This document shows positions 20,546 through 43,506 of a DNA stretch of 64,000 nucleotides, one piece after another. The position numbers and the translations under genes were made by a program. The DNA is from Paramacrobiotus metropolitanus (lineage: Eukaryota; Tardigrada; Eutardigrada; Parachela; Macrobiotidae). Where the stretch lies: NCBI RefSeq assembly GCF_019649055.1, contig NW_026570239.1, positions 124,001-188,000 on the forward strand. Reading direction: 5' to 3'. Each line of letters starts with the position of its first letter. The first letter of the stretch is position 1. Below the pieces are notes generated by a model that worked only from the letters and a program-made list of their open reading frames with translations, was not told where the DNA came from and made no database searches.

Positions 20546-22430
20546 GAATGGAACGCAGGAGGCGTAGGGTTGGCATCCGGCAGCATGCGGACCGGAACCG
20601 CAGACAAAAAACCACCATTCCAGAAACTGCATTGCTGGATCATCGGGATGATGGTGTCATCGACGACGGCAAGTAACACAACTGTTCCTGATATATTAAA
20701 TCTCAAATTCATCGAGAATTTAATACTTGATATATCTGGAACGGAAGTGTGATTTAACCACTATCTGCTGCGCAGAAAACCATGAAGACCATGAGGAGCT
20801 CCTCGATGATGCGCCAGAAATTTGCGACGACGTTAATGTGACCGATCAGCAGGAGCTAATTGAAATTGTTGCGGCTAAAAACACTGGCGAAAAGCGTACG
20901 AAAATCCAATAAAGTAACGCAGTAATAACTTAGAACACTATGTTTATAGAATGTGACGAACATCTACTGCAACAACAAGATGTCAATGTGGAGCTCCAGA
21001 ACGATTGGGACCGTGTTCCTGTCCCTCTGCTAGAATCACAACCGGACAGTTTTAAGGATTATTTTTAAAGACATGTGACAAGTCCAAAATATCCTATGAC
21101 GCACAGGAGTCGTTGCTGAATTTAATATCGCTACTGTTACCTGAAAATTCCGAATTTCCGAAAACAATCTACCCACTGGAAGCGGGACTGCGAAAAAGAA
21201 ATGATCGCAAAATACGAGCTCCATGTTGCCTGCCCATTGTGCGGCAGTTACATCGGCATTGAGCAGCGGGGGGAAGTAGCTACCAAATGCCCTAAATGCC
21301 AAAGCCAATTTCCGATGGGTTCTCTCAGCCAGTTTACCTTCGTTCATTTCCCACTGAAGCCAAGGATTACAGCGCTTGCTCAATCGGCCAAATTTAGGAG
21401 CTCCTATGATGTGCCGGCAGAGGGTGAAACCCGCATTACATCTTTCACAGATGGTGAAATTTATAAAAATTATGCGAAAAAACTTGGACGATTTATACCG
21501 ATAGTACTATTTTCCGATGGAGCGGCAACAGCAAAATCTTCAAAATCAAATATATGGATCTTAAGTTGTCACTTACCTCTGAAAAACAAACGGCCAACAC
21601 CGAACATTTTGGGACTGTGAACAAGAGTGAGAGATTGTTTCAGCAAAGATGGCAGCAACCTGCGAACTGGAAGCAGGCACTTTTACATCCACCTATAGAG
21701 GAGCTCCTCGACCTAGAGCAAAACGGCATTATTTACACGGAAAATGGTGAACAAAAAATATTACCTGTCAGGATTCGTACGTACATAGCTGACAGCCAAG
21801 AAAGATGGCCGATTGCGCATATGAGCTCCTTTATGGCTGACTTTGGATGTGTGCACTGCGAAGACAACGGATATAGAGTTCATCTGAACCCTGGTGTAGA
21901 CGAGTGAACAGTAAAATGCTACCCGATGTTACATTCAAAGCATGCTCCATTTGGGCTACCAAAACTTAGAGATTCTCAGATCACGAAAGAGCGTGCGTAT
22001 GCAGCAGGTTTAGGAGCTCCTGATCGACTGCACGAATTAACTGGACTACAAGGAATGTCTGAACTAATGAAGCTGACAGATTTCAACTTACCGGCCGAAA
22101 TGCCGGTTGGGCCTATGCATCTGTGTTTTGAGGGACTGGAGGAGAAATTTATAGAGTATCGCCTGAAGGGAACAGTGTGGAAATTAACACCGGAAAACAA
22201 GAGGAAAATCAACCTTTTTCTAGAGAAACTGCAACCGCCTTCGATACTACGAAAGCCGAAGACGCTAGACGAGATCGGGCAATGGAAAGGATCTATGTAC
22301 ATGGCTTTCACGCTGTATTACAGCTTACCTTGTTTGCAAGGAATTGTACCCCAAGAAGAGCTCCTCATGTACGCGAAGTTTGCTGCCGCCAGGCAATACC
22401 TTTTCGGTCAGGATGTTACTGAAGCAGGAC

Positions 22431-22736
22431 AGTAGATTCAGCAAGCAGTTTGGACCCGTTCTATTGTTCTCTACAACAATGTACCCTATAATTAAGTAAT
22501 TATCTATTGTTCGCGTGCGTTCGAGCGTAACGTGCGTGCGTAAAGTAATTATCTAGTGTAGTGGCGCGTAACCGTACACTAATTACAGGTGTACACTAAT
22601 TAGGGCTAATTATACCTTACGTAATACTGTACACTAATTACAGGTATACTCGAAAAACAATTACAAATTTAATTTAGTTTTTTAATTAGTTTTTTGTGTT
22701 TTTTATACGTTTTTTGTATGTGTAAAGTTGTTTTTT
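22431..22736 (+). repeat. Left terminal inverted repeat of the Maverick
   Basis: It pairs with 42265-42569. It contains short internal repeats: ACACTAATTACAGGT twice, TAATTATCTA twice, and GCGTGCG/ACGTGCGTGCG. Identity to the other arm is very high, with single-base differences in the A5/A4 and T6/T5 runs. Confidence 0.95.
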
Positions 22737-23029
22737 GTTGTTCCACAGTGCACCGCTCTTTAGAATTTCAAACTGCAGATGCCATGGTATTTTATTAAAC
22801 TCATCGCATTTGTAGTTTGAAAGTGTAAAAACGACGGTACAAAGTATACAGTGTACTACAAAATAACAGAGGTTTACGTAATACTCACCCAGTACCACAG
22901 TGACAATATCTACCCGATTCCAGAAACAGAACAACAAAAAGACATTCCTATTCCACAAAGAAAAAACCAACAACAAACGTACACTTAGGCACGAAAACAG
23001 AACTGCGCTACAAAATCAACAGTGCAGTA

Positions 23030-24951
23030 CTACTGATGTCGGGTACGTCCACGCTGCCCGCGCTTGCCACGTCGAGCACCACGGAAGGAGCCGCGAGTGC
23101 TGGCCAAAGTATCCCGCTGCTGCAAACGCGAGCTGCCCAGGTCTTGAACATGCTGGGGTGCCAATGACGGTGGTACGGTACCAACAGGAAAGAAGATGGA
23201 TTGGGCCACAGAACCAGACGAGCTCGGTTCCACAGGTGCTGCAGACGGTTGAGCGGAACCAGAAACGACAGCCGGCGGCAAGACGGACGGTGCAGCAGGC
23301 GGAGGAACAGGCGCTAATGGTGCTGCGTTATAATTCATGCTACCGCCAGTGGTTCGTGGCTTAAAATCCTGCAGATCGTTTACAAGCTGTACATCGGCAG
23401 GCTTCAAGGTGACACGTTTGGCATGGATGGCTGCCTTGTTGGAGTCTTCGAACAGCTGAACCAAGAACATTTCTGTGGATTCCTGGAGGGCCATCAGGGC
23501 AGGGACTTGCCAGCGTAATTCAGGATTGATGCCAGCACAGATCTCACGCACGAAACGCTGAAACGGAAGCTTTTGGCAGAGTAGCATAGTCGTGCGTTGC
23601 AAATGCTTGATGTCCTGCAGGGCTTTCTCGCCGGGGCGCGCACGCTTGCGAAGCCTTTTGCCTTTCTTCGTGCGCTTGGTCGGCTGTTCTGGAGGCTGCA
23701 AAACTGGGTGTCCCGGATCATCGCCTTGGTCGTCGTCATCATCAGAACCACTAGCTGGTAGCTCCAGTACGTCCGGGGCGGAGTCAACGCTCAGACGCGC
23801 AGCGTGGAACTCAGCGGTCTTCTGACGGATTCGTTCCACGTTGACGGGGTTAGGAGCCGCTAATCCACCTTCCGCTTCCTCATCGGAATCCGGCTGAGGC
23901 GCTCTGAATAAAATTTCGAAAAAGTTGAGTAAGTGACACACACATGCTGCATGTATACGTTTTACCGGGCAATTTCGAAAAATGCTTATAATGATATTTT
24001 ACGTACTGTGAGGACCCAGGGGCAAAACCAGACCGGTTGGACGCTGCAGAACTCAGAGCCCGTTCTCGACTGGCTGATCCAATCGGACTGGAACTGAAAT
24101 TTCGAAAACCATAAGTAAACGAGCAGCGTTCATAATTCTAGTGCAGGATACTGGACAAAATCGAAAATTCTCACCTAGGCAAGCCGTTGCTGTACGTAGT
24201 GCCGTCCATCGTCTTCCTGGCTCGCCCAGTTCCACGACCGGAGGTTGTCGGTTGAGGATCCCTAGAAAAAGTACGCATGTGTATAACAGAAGATCAAAGT
24301 TGCAGTAAAAGTTTTCCCATGGTACCCGTATGAACTAGCGTAGGTGGTGTAGTCCATGGTCTTTCGCGGAGCAGGCTCTCGACGAACAGACTTGGAAGTG
24401 CGCTCCGGTACCCCTTCATCCGATGAACCTGAAGACGAAGCCCCATCTTCCTCCTCCGTATTGTAAGGAGGATCTTTCTCTGGGTCGTCCTGCGCTTCTT
24501 CCTCCAGATCACGCGCGTACTCTGTGCGGTTGTCGGTCTCATCTTCTCCGCCGTCGACATCCTCGACATCAGACTGGGGGCTCAGCGGACGTTTCAGCCC
24601 AACAGGAGAAGGTATTTCTGGAGATGCGGAGCGTGACCTAAAATGTACACGTTAACGAAAATAAAATTTGTATTTTTTATAAAGGAAATTGTGTTACCGC
24701 TGTGATACGTGAGGCATCTGCATTGCCTCAGGGACACCGATGACTCCGTCCAGAGGAATGACGGGATTAGCGTCAACTCCATCGGCCTCAACATGTTCCT
24801 GGACATTCATGCTACCGTTGTCCTCAGCGCCTGGGCCGTCTGAACTACGCTCCGGGACGTCCCCGTTCGCAGCTGCATTTTCAGATACCAGCTGAGGCAC
24901 ACGACTGAGGACGTTGTTCATCAGCGAGACTACGTCATCAAGTACAGACAT
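23030..24951 (-). CDS. Histone H3-fold protein of the Maverick, five exons, ~537 residues
   Basis: Exons: 24951-24698, 24637-24326, 24261-24175, 24093-24007 and 23903-23030. All have GT-AG borders and every phase matches, summing to exactly 538 codons with the stop. Residues 1-335 are acidic, Ser/Pro-rich and apparently disordered, with a Lys/Arg cluster (KKGKRLRKRARP) just before the fold. Residues ~336-425 match the histone H3 core in order: RPGEKALQDI, KLPFQRFVREI, ALMALQE, FEDSNKAAIHAKRVTLKPADVQ. The usual H3 DLR-F segment is replaced by NPELRWQ. A Pro/Ala-rich tail ends in an Arg/Gly cluster. H3 is normally ~136 residues; this one is fused to long tails, as in divergent or CENP-A-like variants. 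Likely role: binding the element's or host's DNA in the nucleus, perhaps with host H4. No H4 partner was found in the element. Confidence 0.9.
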
Positions 24952-26904: not shown

Positions 26905-27147
26905 ATGGATCCGGAAACACCGCCTCCCATTCCCGTCGTCGAGCGGAACTCGAAGGGGATTCTATTCTGGGCTTTATTTTACGCAATACCGTTCATTTTT
27001 TCGCATGTTATACGAATTATTACTGTCCTTGCGCTCAAGGTTACTGACAGATTTCCTGTCCACAATATTATTATGCCTTTAATTTCATTCATGTTCAATG
27101 AAACTCGACGTATGCTGACTGGTGGAAATGGAAGTACAACTCAGTGA
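26905..27147 (+). CDS. Small hydrophobic Maverick protein, 80 residues
   Basis: Begins MDPETPPPIP at 26905. A Pro-rich N-terminus precedes one long or two short hydrophobic segments (GILFWALFYAIPFIFSHVIRI and HNIIMPLISFMF). Its 3' end overlaps the start of the packaging ATPase by about 20 bp in another frame, so the two are probably coexpressed. Small membrane proteins beside the ATPase are common in Maverick-like elements; the function here is unknown. Confidence 0.6.
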   Translation: MDPETPPPIPVVERNSKGILFWALFYAIPFIFSHVIRIITVLALKVTDRFPVHNIIMPLISFMFNETRRMLTGGNGSTTQ

Positions 27148-27787
27148 CAATTTCATGCACCCGACTTCTATTCTTATTAGTGGTAATTCTGGCTGCGGTA
27201 AAACAACCTTTGTGGCTAATATTTTACGTTACAATAAACTCTCGAAATCCCCGGAGCGAATATTTTGGTTTTACAAACAATACCAGCCGCTGTACGATAC
27301 GCTTATCAGAGAAGGATTTCCTGTCACTTTTATCGAGGGACTGCCAGACGAAATCTCAAAACCAAAATTTTTTGACAAATCGTACCTAAATCTGTGTGTA
27401 ATCGATGATCTGCACTTGGAAGATTCTACCAGCAAGCACGTGGCCCAACTATTTTGTAACGGCGGAAGGCATTCAAACACCACAGTAATATATCTTACGC
27501 AGAACTTGTTTTTTAAACAAAGCTTCGGCCGCGACATTAGACTGAACGCCAAAATAATTATCTGTTTCAAAAATCCACAAGACCGACAACAACTACAAAT
27601 TCTCGGACGACAACTTTTCCCTCATAAGTTGAATTATTTTCTTGAATCAGTTAATGCTGCTTTTGAACGACCATATGGATATATAGTCATCGATCTACAG
27701 CATACGACTAGCGACCGTTTTCGTTTAAAGACTGCAATTTTTGGTGAGAATTCTAACCGCTGCACCGAAGTATTTATTCCTGCATGA
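27128..27787 (+). CDS. DNA-packaging ATPase (FtsK/HerA, A32-like)
   Basis: About 219 residues from ATG 27128. The Walker A motif is SGNSGCGKTTFV near residue 18, and Walker B is LCVIDDLHLE near residue 90. An Asn/Gln sensor-like segment (TTVIYLTQNLFF) follows. This order and size match the genome-packaging ATPases of Polintons, adintoviruses and relatives. It would power loading of the element's DNA into capsids. The frame is intact. Confidence 0.93.
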   Translation: MEVQLSDNFMHPTSILISGNSGCGKTTFVANILRYNKLSKSPERIFWFYKQYQPLYDTLIREGFPVTFIEGLPDEISKPKFFDKSYLNLCVIDDLHLEDSTSKHVAQLFCNGGRHSNTTVIYLTQNLFFKQSFGRDIRLNAKIIICFKNPQDRQQLQILGRQLFPHKLNYFLESVNAAFERPYGYIVIDLQHTTSDRFRLKTAIFGENSNRCTEVFIPA

Positions 27788-29008: not shown

Positions 29009-29569
29009 TTATAGCAGCAACACTTTATACATAGGGAGAGAGTATTGCTTATTAGATACATTTTTCAAACATACTTCAGGACGTTTGCACACACGAAGAT
29101 GTTTTTTGGCAAACAGTTTTAACAAAACATCATTTCGCTTCCAGTTTTTATGATATTCAAGTTTATCAATGATTCGACGAAGACTCAACCCACGACAAGA
29201 ATAATACAAGAAAAAAATACAGAACAGTCCACACAAACTAGAATTAGGATGCTGCAATTGAGTATGGTTTTCTTGGTAATGACCATGAGCGTCTGGAAAA
29301 TTTTCCACAATGAATTTATCAAATTCGATTCCATAAAACAATGCTGATTTTCCAAAGGAATCGAAAAACGTGATAGTTTTTGGGTTCTTGGCAAAAACTG
29401 CTAGCCAGTGCTGCCCTGGCAAGGCTTTCTTATCGCTGTTGACAATAAGAGCGACAGGATATTTTATCTTTTTCAGCTTTGGAAGTGCGTCTCTTGCGAA
29501 TACTCCGACAAAAATGCCTCTAAGACAGGGGTCGTGCCGCACTATATCCAGCAGTTGTAGATTATTCAT
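29009..29569 (-). CDS. Adenovirus-type maturation protease (C5/Ulp1 clan)
   Basis: About 186 residues from ATG 29569 (MNNLQLLDIVRH). The catalytic residues are visible in order: His in PGQHWLAVF, Asp in ITFFDSFGK, Gln in NHTQLQHP, and Cys in SSLCGLFCIFF. This matches the cysteine proteases that mature capsids in adenoviruses, Polintons and related viruses. The gene starts a few bases after the capsid stop codon, so it is probably cotranscribed with it. The frame is intact. Confidence 0.93.
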   Translation of the reverse strand: MNNLQLLDIVRHDPCLRGIFVGVFARDALPKLKKIKYPVALIVNSDKKALPGQHWLAVFAKNPKTITFFDSFGKSALFYGIEFDKFIVENFPDAHGHYQENHTQLQHPNSSLCGLFCIFFLYYSCRGLSLRRIIDKLEYHKNWKRNDVLLKLFAKKHLRVCKRPEVCLKNVSNKQYSLPMYKVLLL

Positions 29570-29571
29570 TT

Positions 29572-30905
29572 TCAAGCACGCTTGTATGGACAATAGACAT
29601 TCCTCCGCGAGTCTATCTCAACCAATGCATTTTTGTTGTAATAAATAAGAATAGATAAGGTATTGGTAGTTGGTGTAGAAAATGTTAGCGAGAGACCAAG
29701 AATGCCTTTCTTGGTTGGGTTTATACAAGAATGGTCCCCAATATCCGGTTCCAGATTGAAACCATAAATAGCAAATCCGTTTCGCCAATCAGACTGCGTG
29801 AATGGTAAAGCGGAGCTTTTGTAAATCATTCCTGTTGTTTCGAGGAGACTTTGATACCCATCTCTTGAGTTAGTATCCGAAATTTCGAGAGCTTTACCCG
29901 GAAACGGTTCTGAATTAATGTAAGTTATAATCTGGCTAACGCCGTATCTGTCGAAACGATAGGGATTTCGAGCAATGTTTCCACCAACAGCCTCCGCATG
30001 CACTAAGGCCACGAAAATTTGTTTTGGTATCACACCTCGAAACAAATCGTCCCTTGACCAATGACTGCTCCCGTTTGGGATAGTCATCTCCAGAACGTTT
30101 GATTCTACGTACGGAATCATTGCGTTCCGTTTTTGAATCATTATTTCGTGGGCCAAAAGAAATTCCGGGTCCAGCTTAATTTTTCGTAATTTAAGTGCCG
30201 CTCGTTTTATAACGATTTTAAGGTCCGGTTGTGCAACAGATGATACCAAGGCAAACCTGTCTTTTGAGCGCGATAAAACAAGTTTCATATCAATTTTCGA
30301 GGGTATCAGACGTGGTTGGTTCGCGAGATCGCTCGGGAACTTCATAAACATGTTCCACATGGTACCGTTTGCCAACTGCTCTCGACGAGCAATGTAACCC
30401 TCGTTAAGCTGAATATTGTTCGGATTAGGATCAGGTACGGCAAGGCTGAATGAGTCAAAAAGATTGGAGTCATCCAGCGAGAAACCAGAGCCCAGCAACT
30501 GCTTTTGGCCATCATTCCCGTAGTTTAAAAGGTTTTCAAAATATGAAGAATAATGCGAAAGGGACGGATTTGAAGAAACCGTTTCACTGTTGAAAAGAAG
30601 TTCGTGTCCGCTGAACAAACTTCGCGCAAAATTATTTACAGGTCCCCATTCGATAGCCGCAGCCGGCGCGGCGTTCGCAGATGTTAAAACAGCGACGTCA
30701 AGTAGGATAGAGCTGTGCGCTAAATCAAGCATTTCATCTGGCGTCCCGGCAATTTCCCAGCTAATAGTATCCACATCTAAAGTATTTCCGATAGGGTTGT
30801 AGAGAACATACTTTGCTGATTCGATTGCCGTCTGAGTTGGAGGTAAGGAAAAATGATCAAGCTCAGATTTTAAGCATAGAGCGCGTGGGGATGGACGTCC
30901 GCCAT
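29572..30905 (-). CDS. Major capsid protein (double jelly-roll), 5' frame break
   Basis: The long frame is open from about 30955 to the stop at 29572. Its position between protease and core-protein genes, its size (>430 residues) and its content (a conserved-looking N-terminal PPTQTAIESAKY segment, then long beta-rich stretches) mark the hexon-like capsid protein of Mavericks. The long frame has no ATG near its natural beginning. The best ATG (30903-30905) is in another frame that ends within a dozen codons. So there is either a one-base break near 30875, an unseen upstream exon or unusual initiation. I leave the join unmade. Confidence 0.82.
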
Positions 30906-30916
30906 TCTCAAATGAG

Positions 30917-31408
30917 TTAGTGTAAAATGGTGTTTAAAGGCAATCGAAGTCGTTTACGATGGCGACGGGTGCGATGGGTGTGCTTGGGAGTCCGCTTTTT
31001 ATGCAAACGTTTTCCTTTTGGCTTTTTTGAAACTGATTTGGTGCGTCGTGTGCGTTTTTTCTTTATTACTGGCTTCACCGAAGTCTTTTTAGTCTTGCGA
31101 TGACGCTTACGTCGTTTGCCCATCCCTTTTTGCAAATCAGCGGCCATGCTTGCCAGAGTTTCACGCGTTCTTGACTGGGCGGAGTCTAATAAGGTTGTCT
31201 TATTCTGCATAACATCGTTAACAACGTTTCGATCCAAACGAACCAAATTAGGAAAAATAACATTTTTTGCTGTTCGAGCAAGGCTTCCGAAAAAATTTCC
31301 CAGCGAGCCGTATCCATTCTGTACATGACCGACATTTGAGGTATAATTTGGAGATAATAGTTGGACATAAACTTGCGCGGGAATCGAAAAACTATTAACT
31401 TCATCCAT
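30917..31408 (-). CDS. Basic virion core protein, pX/pVI-like
   Basis: A 163-residue protein. The N-terminal half includes NGYGSLGNFFGSLARTAKN, a Gly-rich amphipathic segment like those of adenoviral membrane-lytic/core precursors. The C-terminal half is almost entirely Lys/Arg with Ser/Thr (KKRTRRTKSVSKKPKGKR), suited to condensing DNA. Its start overlaps the stop of the upstream minor capsid gene. It likely packs the element's DNA in the capsid. Assignment rests on composition, size and position. Confidence 0.75.
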   Translation of the reverse strand: MDEVNSFSIPAQVYVQLLSPNYTSNVGHVQNGYGSLGNFFGSLARTAKNVIFPNLVRLDRNVVNDVMQNKTTLLDSAQSRTRETLASMAADLQKGMGKRRKRHRKTKKTSVKPVIKKKRTRRTKSVSKKPKGKRLHKKRTPKHTHRTRRHRKRLRLPLNTILH

Positions 31409-31815
31409 TATCGACGGCGAAAATTTAATTGCAGAATCGTTGTTCCTTTATCAAAATCAACTGCACGTCCTTCAAGATCAGTTATCGAGAAGAGTAAACG
31501 ATCAAACTGACTGTTTTCGACGTTAATATACTGGAGTATAGGAACATAAGCATTTCCACTCGTAACTTGTTTGGTCGGAACAACCGCAAGAAGGGACACT
31601 CGTGTTTTGTTAACAATCTGACTGCGCACTAGATCGCTTAACACACGCAACGTTCCGAGATTTTTTGATCTTAAGTTTGGCGGACACTGGACATAAGCCA
31701 AAGCTACTTCAAATTCAGTCAATAACTGAATATAATTAGGCAAAAATACACTGAACTCAGATGGAGAGTTACCAGACACTGCGTCAGAAGTAACTGTTAT
31801 ATTGAAATTTTCCAT
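31408..31815 (-). CDS. Minor capsid (penton-like) protein
   Basis: 135 residues from ATG 31815 (MENFNITVTSDAV). Beta-rich, with the recurrent pattern FSVFLPNYIQLL..FEVALAYVQCPPN at the N-terminus and DLEGRAVDFDKGTTILQLNF at the C-terminus, which I associate with the short capsid-block proteins of Maverick elements. Its place next to core and capsid genes supports a vertex or penton role. It is shorter than typical single-jelly-roll pentons. Confidence 0.65.
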   Translation of the reverse strand: MENFNITVTSDAVSGNSPSEFSVFLPNYIQLLTEFEVALAYVQCPPNLRSKNLGTLRVLSDLVRSQIVNKTRVSLLAVVPTKQVTSGNAYVPILQYINVENSQFDRLLFSITDLEGRAVDFDKGTTILQLNFRRR

Positions 31816-31919: not shown

Positions 31920-33017
31920 TTATAAAAGAATGAGTCCCAACCGTTTAAGCTGTGCAACTGAAATCCATTTGTCGAACTTTTTATGCCACCCAACGTAACG
32001 AATCAAAACTTTGTTGCCTTTTCTCGAGAGCACTGTGATTTCGGCAGACTCAGGAGTGTCTTTAGGAACTTTCTGTAATTCCCACATATAAAAACGACCG
32101 TCCATTTCTTCATTTAGCAAGTCTTCGACTTTATACATAGGAATTCCTTCATGTATTTGCAAAGATTTTACTCGATATACTTCAATTGTCCACCCTGGTG
32201 TATATCCTTTCTCCATATGAGTCTTTTTTAGCGAAAGGCGAACAAAATCACCAACACGTGGCGTTTCTTTAAGCGCTCGTTTTGCTGCATATTCTGATTT
32301 GTCCCCGTACAAAATTTTTTTAAACTTCCCGGTTTTATCTTTAGTTACTTCGTTCGGCGTATGAAACTTCAAACTTCTATGTGGACTGTTGTTATACGCA
32401 TCAATAAATTTTTGAATAACATCAATCCACCTCTTTGTCCGGTTATGCGAAAAGTATCTAAACAGCTTTGTGGATAAAGTGCGATTGAGACGTTCGACTT
32501 GACCCGCTTTGATCTCAGCGTTGTTTGTTGAAAAATGTTCGATTCCGTATTCACTCATTAAACTTTGAAACTCCGAGTTGTAGAATTCCGTTCCCAAATC
32601 AGTTTGGACTTTATTAGGTATAAACCCACAACGATTCAAAATTAACTGAAAAGCATCCTTTACATCCACAGCACTTTTACGTTTAATTGGTTCAATCCAC
32701 GCACGTCGAGAAAAACAATCTTCAACAACAAGAAGGTAATTATACCCATCATTCTGTTTAGCGAGAGCAGTGTAATCAATTAAGTCCGCCTGCAGCTGAT
32801 CTTCAGGTCCGGGAACAACAAAATGCAAGCGTTGAAATTTTTTTCGCACAGGTTTATGTAACGTATACGCTTTCTGGCGGCTGAGAAATTCCTTAACGGC
32901 TTCAGGTGAAACAGTGTCTTTGGAACGTTTTTGCGCTTCTCGTAGAAGAGGAACGACACCACCAAACGCGCCAGGAGACGAAGGATCAAAATAAATTTTT
33001 TTCAGTAAATTTTCCAT
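31920..33017 (-). CDS. Retroviral-type (rve) integrase with chromo-like C-terminus
   Basis: About 365 residues from ATG 33017 (MENLLKKIYFDP). The DDE core is visible: first Asp in QLQADLIDYTAL, second in KVQTDLGTEFYN, and Glu in AGQVERLNRTLS. YNNSPHRSLKFHTPNEV is the usual block after the core. The last ~50 residues (ITVLSRKGNKVLIRYVGW then FDKWI) form a chromo-like domain, a common tail of Maverick integrases that may bind chromatin. It would insert the element and make the 5-bp duplication. It overlaps the upstream gene by 32 bp. The frame is intact. Confidence 0.95.
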   Translation of the reverse strand: MENLLKKIYFDPSSPGAFGGVVPLLREAQKRSKDTVSPEAVKEFLSRQKAYTLHKPVRKKFQRLHFVVPGPEDQLQADLIDYTALAKQNDGYNYLLVVEDCFSRRAWIEPIKRKSAVDVKDAFQLILNRCGFIPNKVQTDLGTEFYNSEFQSLMSEYGIEHFSTNNAEIKAGQVERLNRTLSTKLFRYFSHNRTKRWIDVIQKFIDAYNNSPHRSLKFHTPNEVTKDKTGKFKKILYGDKSEYAAKRALKETPRVGDFVRLSLKKTHMEKGYTPGWTIEVYRVKSLQIHEGIPMYKVEDLLNEEMDGRFYMWELQKVPKDTPESAEITVLSRKGNKVLIRYVGWHKKFDKWISVAQLKRLGLILL

Positions 33018-33495
33018 GGATGATTGCAGCAAGACGATTGTCAAGTCCTTTTGGAATCGTGGAATTCAAAAACTGAATACGCATCTGGCCTCGCCAAACA
33101 GTCAAACATTTGTAAAACATAATACATGAACAAATTTGAACGCTCTGGCCAGTATATTCTTCAACAACTTCTCTGAACAATACACGCAGAACTTTTTTAT
33201 TTACGGAATTTAACAACGTGTAAAATAAGCTGTCCTTGTCTTCTCGATCTTCCGAACGATCCATGCAAGTGTGAAGGGGGTCTATACGGTAACAAGCACG
33301 GGACACCATTCTTTCCGATTTCAAAAACTGCTGATTGAGTAAGCAACCCAGAATGTACTTGAACGCCGCTGTACATCGCTTATAAGCGGTTCGTTTAGAA
33401 CAATGAAAATCAAGACGATGATCGCAGTCTGTGCATAGACCAGAAATCAGTTCGAGCTTTAATGTACCATCGTTATCAGACTTTAAAGTAGACAT
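32986..33495 (-). CDS. Cys-rich Maverick protein of unknown function, 169 residues
   Basis: ATG 33495, ending inside the 5' end of the integrase gene. The N-terminus has CTDCDHRLDFHCSKR, a possible Zn-binding group (CxxC...HxxxxxHC), and more Cys follow (CLLNQQF, SRACYRIDPLHTCMD, ICSCIMFYKC). It is otherwise helical. It lies between polymerase and integrase. I do not recognise it. Confidence 0.7.
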   Translation of the reverse strand: MSTLKSDNDGTLKLELISGLCTDCDHRLDFHCSKRTAYKRCTAAFKYILGCLLNQQFLKSERMVSRACYRIDPLHTCMDRSEDREDKDSLFYTLLNSVNKKVLRVLFREVVEEYTGQSVQICSCIMFYKCLTVWRGQMRIQFLNSTIPKGLDNRLAAIIHGKFTEKNLF

Positions 33496-33524: not shown

Positions 33525-36500
33525 TTAATCAATAAAATATCCTGGATCGTCGTTATCGAGATCCTCGGTTAACATATCAGGATTAAAGCGTTCCATCAAC
33601 TGATTTACAATTTTGAACTCTAGAGAATCAACTGCAGGAAAAGGTATACCGCGATAGCCAAGTGGAAAAGTTTCGAAGTCACGCCCAATAACACGACTGG
33701 TCACAGTACAACCAATGCGGCGAATCAACGGCACTGTCTGAATGCTTAGCTTATCGGTATCCTTTTTAAATGTAATATCGTGACAAGCCGTTATCTGTGT
33801 GGGACCATCACCGAACAACATCGACTTCAATGTTTTGATATTGACGCGATCTTTAAGCCCATCACTCTTTGGGATTCCTTTGCACTTAATGCGTTGTTCA
33901 CCATTGCTCATAACCTGGCAATACGTTTTCTTTGCGAGTGCAGCCAATTCGACGAAATGCTTTCCGCCGAGGTCGTCGGATAACTGTCCAATGATCTCAC
34001 CGACAGGGGGATCATCCGTTCCCGGAACACTCACAAACATAACGGAGTCAGTATCGCAATAGAGCAGACGATCTTCCACAGCTCTGAGCGCTTTAAGTAA
34101 CTCGAGTTGAGCAAGCTCAGTCGTGAATTTACCGATGTATGGGTTAGTGCGTTTGTTTGGAGCTACCTAAAACATTTTTCGAAAAACGTGCCGAGATTAG
34201 TTACCGCAGGACTGAAACATCACTCTACAAGACAAAAACGAAATTTCCATACCCATCCAGCTTTTTCTTGAAACGTAACGTCAATCGAATTTCCTTCGTT
34301 AACCATGCGAACATCGTTCGTTATGTACTGGTTGTTGAAGACAATGTCCTTCATATCTTTGTATGTGTGGCAGTATTTATTCTGCCGATAAATTTCCTTC
34401 ATGACATACCTATTAAGGAAAATGATTCAAGAAATGATTAAACACTCTTGAATCACATTCCTTACCGTCCCCAAACGCAGTTGGCACTGATCTTGCTGGA
34501 GTGCCGTAAGCCAGGGTTGTAGCTGACTTCTTCGGGCGTAAAAATAATTCCAAGCTCATCCTCATACTGCTGACAGTAGCGAATCTTCTCTTTAGTCGTT
34601 GTAATGTGTGAAGGAAAACCACTGCTGATGATTTTAGCGTGAATGAGATCGAGCAAAAACTTGGCAAAAATTCCTCCCGTTCGTGTATCTTTGTTAAATT
34701 TACTGCGGTTCGGAAAATGGTGCACTTCATACACTTTACGAATCAAATATCCGTCTTTGACAGCTTGTGACAGGACACGTCCTGCACAGAGTATACACTG
34801 TACGACCGTCAACCAATCGGCATGGAAGGGTGGGGACTTTCAAGTCGTACGGCGGCCAGACAAAACAGTACACGACGCCAAAGTATTCATTCAACCTGAA
34901 CGGCTTTTTGGAGGCTGGAAAATCCGGAAAAATAATTTTTGGATGTCCGACAGGATATTCCCCAAAAATCATAACCGATGGATACAAAGAAATAAAATCC
35001 AAAGCTTTTCCTTTACAACCATCCGGAATGTCTTTGTAGATCGAAAAGACTTCTGTTCGACCCCCGAATAAATGATCACGGACATTCATGCGCTTCCGGA
35101 AGTCATTTCCAACTGTAATCTCTCCACTTTTAACTTTTTCGTCGAAATCGCATTCCCAAATGCTTCTGAACCCTCGCACACGCACTTCAGGGTTTTCTTG
35201 GTTAGGATAAACGTTTCTAATGTAGTGCTCGACTCTTCTCGTCTCCTCCCGCAGTTCGCCAAAAGTCTTCATTCGTACTGTGTTCATACGGGAGGGATTG
35301 GGGAAGCACTTCCGACAGCCATGCCAAAAGCACCCATAAAACTGCCACACATCGCCAAACTCGTCAAATCCGTCCACGGGGTATGGACCAATATACAATT
35401 CCCCCTCTAGCTTACGCGCATGGCGTACTTCCGTTCCCGTTCTATTCTCGAACCACGTCATCCACTGAATAGCCTTATCGCTTTGATTATGCGCCCTGCC
35501 GTAGCCGTTCGCTGGAAGTATTCCAATCGTTTCAGGTTGCAGGTAGTGCACTTGAAAGGCTTTCATAACGGCCGAAGGATTCGTGGGTTCGTCGAAAGGA
35601 TCCAACCCGGGAAAGAGATTAGTAAAGGATGAACGCGTAATCTTGGCACACTCGCGTAGGACCAGAACGTCGTTGACACAGTATTTTTCGCACTCATCCA
35701 TAAGATTGTAGTTATTTCCGAAGATGTGTACGGCATTGGTGTACCATTGCTCAAACTCGCTTATCTTCGATGCAGACATCCGTTCAGTATTGAAGAACTC
35801 CTTAGCTGAAATTTCGAAAAGTCTTGGTACGTCCAACAGGAAATAAATACCTATGCAAGTTTACTAAGCAATTTCGAAAATTTATCTCACCTGGCACCGG
35901 GCCAATGTAGTTTTCGTTTTCAGGAGTATTAAATAAATACGGGAAAAATCCTTTGAGGACCAGGTGGCTTATTCCGAGATCCTTTGGAAGCTCCGCCAGA
36001 CTTCTCGGCATAAACGAAAGCGTATCCACGAATCTAGCGTTCACTCCTGGTACTGTGATCAGAGTAAGACTGGCACCATCTTGAATTTTACGAGCATAAT
36101 GTCCTTGGCCTTCAAGTGCTCGAAGGATAAAATAGTTATCATATCGTCGTCCGTTGTGTGACAGGAAAGTGCAGTGCTTTGTATGTTTGAAGATCCATTC
36201 AAGTAAATCATCAGCGCACGAATTGCCACGAAATGTCAGGCTAAAGTTATCGTCGTCCAAACACATAAGCGCCGCCATGTTTGGATAATGGTAGCGCGAA
36301 TTATCCAAACCAGCTTCAAAATCGAAAACAAATTTCTTGCTCACAAACTTCGTAATCCGTACATCTGATGTAACTCTGTTCGCTGGTCCATTTTCCAGGT
36401 TGGAGACTTCCTTGCGAAAAGAGTCATTAAAGTCCGACTGTGCATCAGTCTCGTCAAACTCACTTGCTGACTCTGCTATAGTACTCTCGATCACTGAAAT

Positions 36501-37889
36501 ACATCCGTCGCTGTCATCATCGTCATCATTACAATCATCGTCGGAAACGTTATCATCAACTCCAATGCTCTTTGAACTAAGAGATTTTTTCTTCACCGCC
36601 TTTTTTGCTTTTTCTCCGCATAGAATAAAGCATAAATGATTGCGCTCCACCATTTCTTTACAATTTCTGCATTGAGTTGTGTAGCACTGATGCGGACCGG
36701 TATGGACACGGTTAGGTGGATTTACAAACACACCACACTCAGAACATCTTTTCCAAACTTCGCATATGGTTTTTTCTTTTGTGTAGTATCCTTTGTTCAC
36801 CTTATGGTTGTCGAAACATTTCTTTGAATAAAACGTGCGATTGCAGTCTCCGCACAGAAAGTCTTCGCGAGGCCAATCGTATCGACCACGTCCGTAACAT
36901 TTTACGCCTCCGCATAGATTGCAGAAACCAAAACACTTATGTTGGCGTTTATTCCTGTAGAACACACCGCATGTCTCGCAACGGCCATCGAATCCCATTA
37001 AAGCGTGAGGCTTTACCACAGCATCAAAGTGCTTGTTGTGGTAGATTAGTGTCACTAGGTGTTTACACTCCGGGGAATCGTACGTTTCAGCAAACTGGCA
37101 TTCTGCGTCAATCAAACGCAACTGGCAGTCATACCGCTCACGTAAAACTTGAGAAAATTTATCCAGTTCTATTAACCCGCATGGTTCCGGAAAAACTTTG
37201 GCTTCCCATCGTAACCTTTGGGCAAGATCGTGCTGGAATTTCTTGCTGGAATCTCGGATCTTATTGTAATTAGGAAGTTCCAAGACCTTTGCAAGCACTA
37301 CGGCAATCGCTCTAGAGCAGCACAGCGTATTATTCGGATCGTATTTGTTATTCGGCCGAATTACGACAACACTTTTACGCTGTTCGAGGTATTCCGAGAG
37401 TTTAAAAGCCAGACGATTCTTTCTGATAGAACGGTTACCTGCTCCAATAAGGTTGTGAACGACCAAGAACGTACAGCGAAATGACTCCGAAAATGTGAAC
37501 TCAGTATTTCCACTTCGATTTGCACGTTCGATCAGATCAAGAACAGTCTTTGCTGTGAGTTCGACGGCCGTCTTGGTTCCCGTTGAAATAGCCCCACTTG
37601 TTAGCGAGTCGTGTTGCAGAATTAGACGAACGGCGTCGTGAGGCTCGACGGAGTGTTGATTGTAAAGGTAGTTCAAAAGGTGCTCAAACATGTAGTACAG
37701 ACGATACATCGAACCTTCAGCGTCGGTCGGGTCTATATGGTCGTGGCGAAATATGGTAAAGCTGTCCTCAACCGTGTGAAACCTTGCAGATGGGGTTATC
37801 TGGCGAGTCTCTGGCTTTATTGAGTATGCCGGGCTACAAGTCCACACGTTTCTCAATTTTTCGAAAACATTCAGTAAACTAAACAACAC
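33525..37889 (-). CDS. Protein-primed family B DNA polymerase, four exons, one frame break
   Basis: Exons: ~37855-35891, 35805-34466, 34409-34253 and 34166-33525, with GT-AG borders. Exon 1 has a long N-terminal region with many CxxC pairs (CETCGVFY, CNLCGGVKC, CSECGVFV), then an acidic linker, then exonuclease motifs FVFDFEAGLD and FLSHNGRRYDNYFIL. Exon 2 has YCVNDVLVL (Exo III), KALDFISLYPSVM (polymerase motif A) and SKISANCVWG (motif B). Exon 4 has LLYCDTDSVMF (motif C, DTDS). It would replicate the linear element from a terminal protein. Between ~34810 and 34740 the reading frame changes and some residues of a Cys-rich insert appear lost, so the gene is broken or mis-assembled there. The first exon's start codon is unresolved. 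Confidence 0.93.
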
Positions 37890-38093
37890 AACAATTCCGT
37901 ACAGCAGTTACCATGCAAAATCGAAAATTACAATCGATTAATAAACGAAAGTACATGTAACAGATAGAAACAGCCACTAATATTTTGACATCAATATTGA
38001 CATTATAAGTTAAAAGAACGCCATGCGGAGAATATTCTAATGCCTTGAGAGTAAACGTAGTGAGAAAATTCCCGGTCTTTAAGGAGATGCGAC
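37890..38093. promoter_or_regulatory. Spacer upstream of the polymerase gene
   Basis: No coding sequence. It contains AAAATCGAAAATTAC near 37918, a variant of the recurrent motif. Confidence 0.35.
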
Positions 38094-42264: not shown

Positions 42265-42569
42265 CAAAAACAACTTTACACATACAAAAAACGTATAAAA
42301 AACACAAAAAACTAATTAAAAAACAAAATTAAATTTGTAATTGTTTTCGAGTATACCTGTAATTAGTGTACAGTATTACGTAAGGTATAATTAGCCCTAA
42401 TTAGTGTACACCTGTAATTAGTGTACGGTTACGCGCCACTACACTAGATAATTACTTTACGCACGCACGTTACGCTCGAACGCACGCGAACAATAGATAA
42501 TTACTTAATTATAGGGTACATTGTTGTAGAGAACAATAGAACGGGTCCAAACTGCTTGCTGAATCTACT
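42265..42569 (-). repeat. Right terminal inverted repeat of the Maverick
   Basis: Inverse of 22431-22736, ending GCTGAATCTACT followed by the target duplication AGGAC at 42570-42574. Confidence 0.95.
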
Positions 42570-43506
42570 AGGACTACTGGAAACATCAGCTTTATTGATC
42601 CAGTTTGGTCTAGAAATTCAAGAAACATTTGGTTTAAGGAGCATGTCGTATAATTTGCATCAAATGTGCTGTCATCTTGTGGAATATGAGTATCTGTTAG
42701 GCCATCCGATTTCATTTTGGGCTTTCGAGCATGAAGACTACGTTGGAAAGATGAAATCTCACCTGAAGTGGCCCAACGAACAACACAAGGAAATCGCTGG
42801 AAAGGTTGCATTTGGGCTTTCCGCAGATTTTCTGATTGGGAGCTTTGGAGACAATATTGCACCACCAGAAGTGGAACGGATGCGGCATTCTTTGACTAAA
42901 AACTTGCCAGCAAGCGCAGTCAAAATATTATCAACGACAGGAGTGGCATATCTCTGTGGACAAGGCAAATCGGTTGAAGAACTTCAAGCCGCAGATCCTC
43001 CCGTTTATGCCCATCTTAATGGATTGGGAATTTTAAGAGGAGCTCCTCAGTTGTTGACATTCCAGCGATGTATCACAGAATCCGGTTCACGCCTTGATAT
43101 TGCTGCATACAAAAGGAAAGAAGTCCATGTAAACTCCGTATTTTTGGATCTAAAAAGCGATGCGTACATTGCCGGGCTATAATTTTGGTTAACAAAAAAG
43201 CAGCATTTATTATCGCTACCGTTCTCCAGAAGAAACCGTGGACATATTTCGAATTCAACAATGATCCATTCCTGAATAATGCGTTATTTCAGAAAAATTA
43301 TGTTTGTTTCGAAATTACTAATAAGCTGGCCGTTGTAAAAACCGGCTCTGTTCGCAATAGCGCTATGCTGATTCAAGACAGGTCAGGTAATGAGTTGGTT
43401 GTTTCTATAATGGCTCAAACGCCAATTTAGTGTGCATCTAGTGTCTAAATTTTATTTAATATAGGAGCTCCTGATTTTAATTAGAACGTTACAACAATTT
43501 ATCTAA

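Follow-up and report, generated by a model that had tools for sequence, protein, structure and literature searches.

Does a mobile element of an animal carry its own histone H3, and if so, what could it use it for? The question is raised by a locus of the tardigrade Paramacrobiotus metropolitanus (genome 169.8 Mb, 533 contigs), where an earlier reading of the sequence, here called the original prediction, placed a protein with an H3 core and long tails inside a Maverick/Polinton. We analysed the whole 64,000-nucleotide stretch of DNA that contains the gene, referred to as the window, together with relatives of gene and element in the same genome.

Results

The element and its genes

Polintons, or Mavericks, have long terminal inverted repeats that begin with AGT and are flanked by a target-site duplication of 5-6 bp. 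The element in the window spans 22431-42569 (20.1 kb), has terminal inverted repeats of about 305 nt and contains the following features beside the H3-like gene:

22426-22430: left target-site duplication, AGGAC; an open frame results when the flanks are joined across a single copy
22431-22735: left terminal inverted repeat, beginning AGTAG; arms 93-99% complementary; also present in C22, C16, C9 and C36
25312-25950, minus strand: LRR N-terminal-like secreted or membrane protein (LRRNT only E 0.022), neighbour of the H3-like gene
27119-27787, plus strand: A32-like packaging ATPase (PF04665, E 9.6e-7)
29009-29617, minus strand: adenovirus-type protease (PF00770, E 4.8e-9)
29572-30933, minus strand: major capsid protein candidate, named from its place and its conservation beside integrases only
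30917-31447, minus strand: basic protein, pI 11.9, candidate virion core protein, in relatives with and without H3
31920-33065, minus strand: retrovirus-type integrase (PF00665, E 1.5e-12)
33525-37907, minus strand: DNA polymerase B region in several separate, unjoined open stretches (PF03175, E 7.4e-18; phrog_1907, E 3.4e-13)
42266-42569: right terminal inverted repeat, paired with the left arm
42570-42574: right target-site duplication, AGGAC, read in the sequence

The capsid protein candidate gave no significant profile match and no match in the PDB. Lysine and arginine make up 25% of the basic protein beside it. Adintovirus integrases carry a C-terminal chromodomain according to the part of the source available (PMC11071296); in the element of the window, a Tudor-knot/chromodomain match was weak (E only 0.092). 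The stop codon of the H3-like gene lies 295 nt inside the left inverted repeat, close to the predicted distance of about 0.3 kb, and its Pfam PF00125 match is the one histone match within the element. Together with the repeats, the target-site duplications and the multi-copy family beside integrase and capsid-candidate genes described below, this bears out the assignment of the gene to a Maverick/Polinton, and we regard its membership in the element as firm.

The element interrupts a transposase-like open frame (21908-22430 and 42575 onward; named by eye), perhaps that of another mobile element. Without the element and with one copy of the duplication, the flanks read through as a single frame of this transposase-like sequence.

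Gene model and protein architecture

The H3-like gene occupies 23030-24951 on the minus strand. Its five exons join to one open frame of 537 residues through GT-AG introns of 60, 64, 81 and 103 nt:

24698-24951, minus strand: exon 1, with the start ATG and acidic N-terminal region; its junction to exon 2 lies outside the coverage of the NCBI model
24326-24637, minus strand: exon 2, acidic N-terminal region, resembling subfamily B
24175-24261, minus strand: exon 3, containing RARKTM with an H3K9-like ARKT string
24007-24093, minus strand: exon 4, with junctions as in the NCBI model P0001
23030-23903, minus strand: exon 5, with the entire histone fold, the C-terminal tail and the stop
23639-23692, minus strand: basic linker, residues 318-335, net charge +8, nuclear-signal-like by eye
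23372-23638, minus strand: H3 histone fold, residues 336-424, from Pfam, the PDB and the alignment to host H3
22791-22796, minus strand: AATAAA, a possible poly(A) signal of the gene, from the sequence

Splicing is ambiguous at the level of sequence, as 52 combinations using any GT and AG stay open to the fold and give up to 561 residues. We prefer the 537-residue model, already proposed in the original prediction, because the NCBI model of the near-identical C22 copy (P0001, LOC129586777; an 'uncharacterized protein' of Paramacrobiotus metropolitanus) has its last three junctions; 105 of 106 residues are identical. An Rfam search found no histone 3' stem-loop at the gene.

The histone fold was recovered by profile search at residues 336-424, practically where it had been expected (about 336-425). 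It matches the Pfam histone family PF00125 with E 1.1e-29, has histone H3.3 as the top of 176 PDB sequences (E 1.5e-28) and is 53% identical to host H3. We regard the identity of the fold as H3 as firm; these matches and the low-confidence model described below fit an H3-type fold with an N-terminal alpha-N helix. The long acidic and RG-rich tails hold as well. The fold is preceded by 317 residues with a net charge of -35 and then by the 18-residue basic linker, and it is followed by 113 residues with a net charge of +9, five RG/GR steps and an RG-rich end. An H3-type tail with K4, K9 and K27 is absent, and the 317-residue acidic tail stands in its place. The sole H3-like piece noted in the tail of subfamily A, to which the window's gene belongs, is the ARKT string at residue 203. 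Its context, RARKTM, is similar to a site of the H3K9 type, and a markable site may survive there; ARK[ST] arises in 109 of 5000 shuffles, so the string may be due to chance.

AlphaFold2 modelling of exon 5 reached a mean pLDDT of 54.8 and placed helices at 92-104, 114-123, 130-150, 156-163 and 168-178, in the order of H3. H3 was the best PDB match of this model, but with a TM score of at most 0.31 at 13 A. In the model of the fold alone (pLDDT 65.1) the last two helices were merged. The structure prediction supports the H3 fold weakly.

Residues kept and changed in the fold

We aligned seven cores: one of subfamily A, two of B, two of C, one of D and host H3. Nineteen columns are invariant, among them R69, R72, H113, R116, T118 and L126 (H3 numbering), which we take to be DNA contacts and parts of the H3-H3 interface. 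Other H3 contact residues are changed, namely 49, 52, 53 and 63 in A, 83 in C and 123 in the C84 copy, and R129 differs in all four subfamilies. A normal octamer is therefore not assured. All four subfamilies have changes in the chaperone site 87-90, although B retains three of its four residues, and the modification sites 56, 79 and 122 vary. Outside the fold, the acidic N-termini of A and B align with a score of 119 against 52.5 +/- 7.7 for shuffled sequences (0 of 1000 as high; local acidic runs were not kept in the shuffles), and a GSSRL string near the C-terminus is common to both.

Copies and subfamilies in the genome

A search with the left repeat gave nine matches, two of them inside the window. 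All four H3-bearing elements found with both ends have their own perfect 5-bp duplication, AGGAC in C19 (the window), AGAAC in C22, CAGTC in C16 and GACGA in C36, and in all four the H3-like gene lies just within the repeat. The flanks of C19, C22, C16 and C9 have no mutual similarity. The original prediction had named host DNA mis-joined at 23.0-25.0 kb as a possible source of error. Since the order of repeat and gene recurs on separate contigs, at four independent sites with different flanks and duplications, an assembly mis-join is ruled out for practical purposes, and we give this explanation a negligible probability.

There are 64 matches with Pfam PF00125 and 51 with the H3-like protein in the genome, many of which look like host histones (they were not sorted singly). 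Among 20 stretches examined, 18 were assigned to subfamilies and two (C15, C47) resemble host H3 variants. Subfamily A consists of C19 and C22; B of C16, C9 and C36; C of C84, C18 and C43 and the broken C95 and C266; and D of C393, C441 and C250, of which C393 and C441, with 98.8% likeness, may represent a single place in two haplotypes. An E type comprises six partial stretches on C103 and C251. A to D amount to 13 places including the window; C103 and C251 stand outside that count. Eleven of these have a match to the integrase or the capsid candidate close by on the same strand, mostly at 8-9 kb and at 13 kb in C36 (binomial probability 1.3e-14 if 3.7% of the genome, a generous value, is taken as background). 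The two places lacking a near partner are C43, with no integrase or capsid match listed, and C266, where the nearest is 33 kb away or on the opposite strand. Each of the four subfamilies has an open copy. Broken copies are C22, C95, C266 and, by searches alone, C115.

The C115 match (418963-419163, minus strand) has a capsid-candidate match 6.5 kb away on its own strand and is probably one more remnant of an H3-bearing element. We left it out of the 11 of 13 because it was spotted through this very nearness. C103 and C251 each hold three places with partial H3 copies of the E type, spaced about 9-15 kb (L045-L050). The host itself has further H3 variants: on C26 a CENP-A candidate whose loop 1 is long, and on C3, C15 and C47 proteins with long or odd N-termini (L003, L005, L052, L053). 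A second, larger Polinton group is also present, with integrases 33-39% identical; at least 12 of the listed integrases of this group have a single in-frame TGA and no other stop.

Relatives without H3 and the origin of the gene

Twelve repeat-bounded relatives of 18.6-19.8 kb have none of the 64 PF00125 matches inside. In three H3-less elements, C38, C7 and C97, the LRR gene directly adjoins the repeat (L055, L081, L082; 25312-25950 in the window). A fold profile run against six stretches of elements without known H3 (C7, C23, C57, C38, C44, C97) gave no score above the inclusion line; the best below it was E 0.016 in C23. Two other candidates were set aside. An AT-hook frame in the H3 slot of the H3-less C7 has a strong match elsewhere only in C2, outside the Polinton places found; its C-terminal part is a common repeat, and the frame lies outside the C7 repeat. 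A receptor-like reading frame beside the C38 element lies outside its repeats and is thus not a gene of the element.

The integrase tree was built from 21 rows, the window and 20 of 108 other matches, and rooted at the midpoint; it omits, among others, the degenerate or partial C22, C9 and C95 as well as C441, which is like C393. All seven H3-bearing rows and C57 fall on one branch with support of 86/87 (not starred), and the H3-less rows form sets of 10 and 3. With this moderate support, a single gain of H3 would be the simplest reading; loss of H3 in the other lineages is the alternative, and the direction depends on the root. C57 has an integrase of the H3 clade, and its fetched stretch is without H3 and, by eye, without the LRR gene. 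We do not count it as a loss of H3 because its end may be missing from the stretch. In a tree of H3 proteins, the H3-like proteins lie on one side of a branch, with support of only 73/73 and long branches. Overall, the data support the view that a captured H3 became an accessory gene in one Polinton clade, between the LRR gene and the left repeat.

Beyond this genome, a search of 5.8 billion proteins for relatives with exact shared words found close relatives only from this species (P0001, P0185); part of the protein searching scored the best 8000 candidates by shared words, so that distant relatives may escape. The other listed matches are mainly H3-type proteins. Two scans of viral contigs gave 19 and 22 pattern matches, none of which was confirmed as a relative of the window's H3. 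Four long H3-like proteins with charged N-terminal parts, P0007, P0009 (15 member sequences), P0016 and P0188, come from large contigs of other data sets and may be further mobile or multi-copy H3s.

Selection on the fold

dN/dS was counted (NG86) over the 88-codon core for pairs within subfamilies; the pairs overlap. Core ratios were 0.07 (C16-C36), 0.08 (C9-C36), 0.13 (C84-C18), 0.13 (C84-C43) and 0.16 (C18-C43), and the tails of the same pairs gave 0.73, 0.73, 0.30, 0.29 and 0.99. For three pairs with core ratios of 0.07, 0.13 and 0.16, Fisher tests returned p values of 2e-8, 1e-8 and 4e-4. The cores of C16-C9 (1 silent and 3 replacement changes, ratio 0.84) and C393-C250 (0 silent, 1 replacement) have too few changes to be used. 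In comparisons across subfamilies, silent sites are at or close to saturation, and the core ratios that could be computed lie at 0.20-0.40. Silent change in C16-C36 is 0.35 in the core and 0.08 in the tails, and patches of exchange may blur the selection figures. By these counts, purifying selection has acted on the fold in subfamilies B and C; the result covers these two and not the window's subfamily A, whose only close copy (C22) is broken.

Exchange of H3 types between elements

Gene by gene, the elements tell different histories. The integrases of C84 and C393 have 0 silent differences at 145 sites and their capsid candidates a dS of 0.016, whereas identity between their H3 proteins is 37% and dS there is close to saturation; divergence is greater on the LRR side as well (DNA identity about 81%). 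For C84 and C18, dS rises from 0.02 (capsid) over 0.10 (integrase) to 0.37 (H3), and for C19 and C16 from 0.32 (capsid) over 0.58 (integrase) to saturation (H3). As very different H3 types are found on near-identical backbones, the H3 gene has been exchanged between backbones. Mosaic-like copies were also seen: the H3 end of C22 (L034) is 99% DNA-identical to C19 and that of C9 (L036) 96% protein-identical to C16, and both copies have an integrase and portions of the capsid candidate that have degenerated or belong to another lineage.

Discussion

A putative chromatin protein of the element

Our preferred explanation is that a captured H3 serves as a Polinton accessory gene and, with host H4, forms chromatin on the element that has a tail without the usual markable sites. 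We give this explanation as a whole a probability of roughly 0.45. The H3-like protein would enter the nucleus through its basic linker and dimerise with host H4, which is needed since the element supplies H3 only. The pair would then become part of nucleosome-like particles on DNA; the likeliest substrate would be the linear DNA of the element itself, while it is replicated or shortly after it has integrated. The acidic tail would substitute for the H3 tail and thereby yield chromatin without the lysine 4, 9 and 27 sites used by host silencing, and it may double as a built-in chaperone or as a docking surface for proteins of the element. The linker, the kept fold and the missing H3 tail fit an element-coded protein of nuclear chromatin. 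It may plausibly replace H3 on the DNA of the element; both the tail step and the site of action are guesses. For giant-virus insertions, viral KDM4-like enzymes were proposed as a bypass of host silencing in the part of the report available (PMC11244446), and by analogy we infer that an H3 without the usual tail might be another route past it. One could go further and suppose that the element-coded H3, with its unmarkable acidic tail and host H4, builds chromatin of the element's own that evades tail-based silencing and marks it as 'own', with the exchange of types reflecting selection against recognition by host or rivals and the histone serving as an identity tag. We consider this extended version unlikely.

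Alternatively, the protein might act on host chromatin, either as an H3 mimic in host nucleosomes or by binding H4 or chaperones, and thus alter gene activity or defence of the host. According to the accessible text of a review (PMC9145170), single histones of viruses are believed to become part of host chromatin, and host immunity is suppressed by the tail of bracovirus H4; the long divergent tails and the exchanged gene types would suit a host conflict. However, the fold is only 53% identical to host H3, compared with the 73-87% given there for single viral H3s, the chaperone site is altered in all subfamilies (least in B), and general harm to the host would profit vertically kept elements little, which makes this role doubtful. 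Packaging of the element genome by a histone-type virion core protein, one of the functions considered in the original prediction, could draw on the Marseillevirus and iridovirus histones, described as virion proteins in the same source, and on the residues kept in the fold that we take to be DNA contacts. It has lost ground, as H3-bearing and H3-less elements alike encode the separate pI 11.9 protein beside the capsid candidate; moreover, twelve repeat-bounded relatives of 18.6-19.8 kb have no histone match, and the N-terminus is strongly acidic. A virion-core role is accordingly quite unlikely.

A CENP-A-like capture, which would give the element a segregation or replication mark, had also been suggested. 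Tryptophan at the position of H3 F84 is a hallmark of CENP-A; it is present here together with some CENP-A-like residues of helix 2. The same tryptophan occurs in some H3 matches that are not CENP-A (P0006, P0007), the host owns a CENP-A candidate with a long loop 1 (L005), and loop 1 of the H3-like protein is as long as that of H3, with no CENP-A-type insertion. The tree does not group it with the human, Syngnathus or host CENP-A candidates. We therefore reject the capture of a CENP-A as the best reading, and a CENP-A-like function is very unlikely. Finally, the gene might be a copy of host H3 that is merely carried along, has no function and is decaying. Four broken copies (C22, C95, C266 and C115) and the nearly neutral tails of some pairs point in this direction, but core dN/dS of 0.07-0.16 in B and C, an open copy in each subfamily and the constant place in the element render it very unlikely indeed.

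Significance

The original prediction holds and the finding is broader than a lone gene, as the sequences describe a Polinton clade with its own evolving H3. Polintons are commonly positioned close to the origin of many DNA viruses of eukaryotes. Here, a single animal genome lets one trace how an H3 was gained, diversified and exchanged, with the H3-less relatives as controls. If the protein forms chromatin on the element, it would offer a direct test of escape from tail-based silencing through a self-supplied histone, as well as a natural collection of H3 cores revealing which contacts H3 cannot lose.

Comparison with known viral histones and Polintons

With Polintons/Mavericks and adintoviruses, the window's element shares the integrase, PolB, A32 ATPase, adenovirus-type protease, inverted repeats and short target-site duplication. 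Single viral histones are already known. In the available parts of the open-licence literature searched, no histone gene is described in a Polinton, Maverick or adintovirus, and the words Polinton, Maverick and adinto are absent from two works on viral histones. Single viral H3s are reported from Manila clam xenomavirus, Dishui Lake phycodnavirus, Sylvanvirus and others, with folds 73-87% identical to host-type H3; three of the six reviewed have an extended N-terminal tail, and tail or chaperone sites are mostly kept (PMC9145170, as far as accessible). Like them, the tardigrade protein is a lone H3-like histone in its element. It differs in its 53% identity, in its acidic tail of about 320 residues and its C-terminal tail, and in belonging to a diversified multi-copy family in an integrating Polinton.

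Bracovirus H4 is likewise a captured single histone with a long N-terminal tail, about 87% identical to insect H4 and delivered by the wasp (PMC9145170, in the portion available); in contrast to the gene described here, it is an H4 and does not reside in a transposing element. Nudivirus Orf1 is an H4-H3 doublet with a long unrelated N-terminal part, and the Marseillevirus, medusavirus and iridovirus histones are divergent, according to the accessible sections of two papers (PMC9145170, PMC11222145). Whereas these are doublets or full sets, the Polinton H3 stands alone and would need host H4.

Two cases come nearest in the literature available. In a survey of Polinton-like viruses, six hits to the histone 3' UTR stem-loop RNA are recorded, and the accessible part names no histone gene. 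Xeno-class adomaviruses have 'Histoid' genes, and the clam virus Adomavirus tegillarca5526 combines a Histoid, whose similarity to histones is remote (HHpred), with a RepE1 gene and adintovirus-like virion genes (PMC11071296, seen in part). Compared by description only, the adomavirus Histoid and the tardigrade H3 are alike in being histone-like genes of an animal virus or element with virion genes of the adenovirus/adintovirus type.
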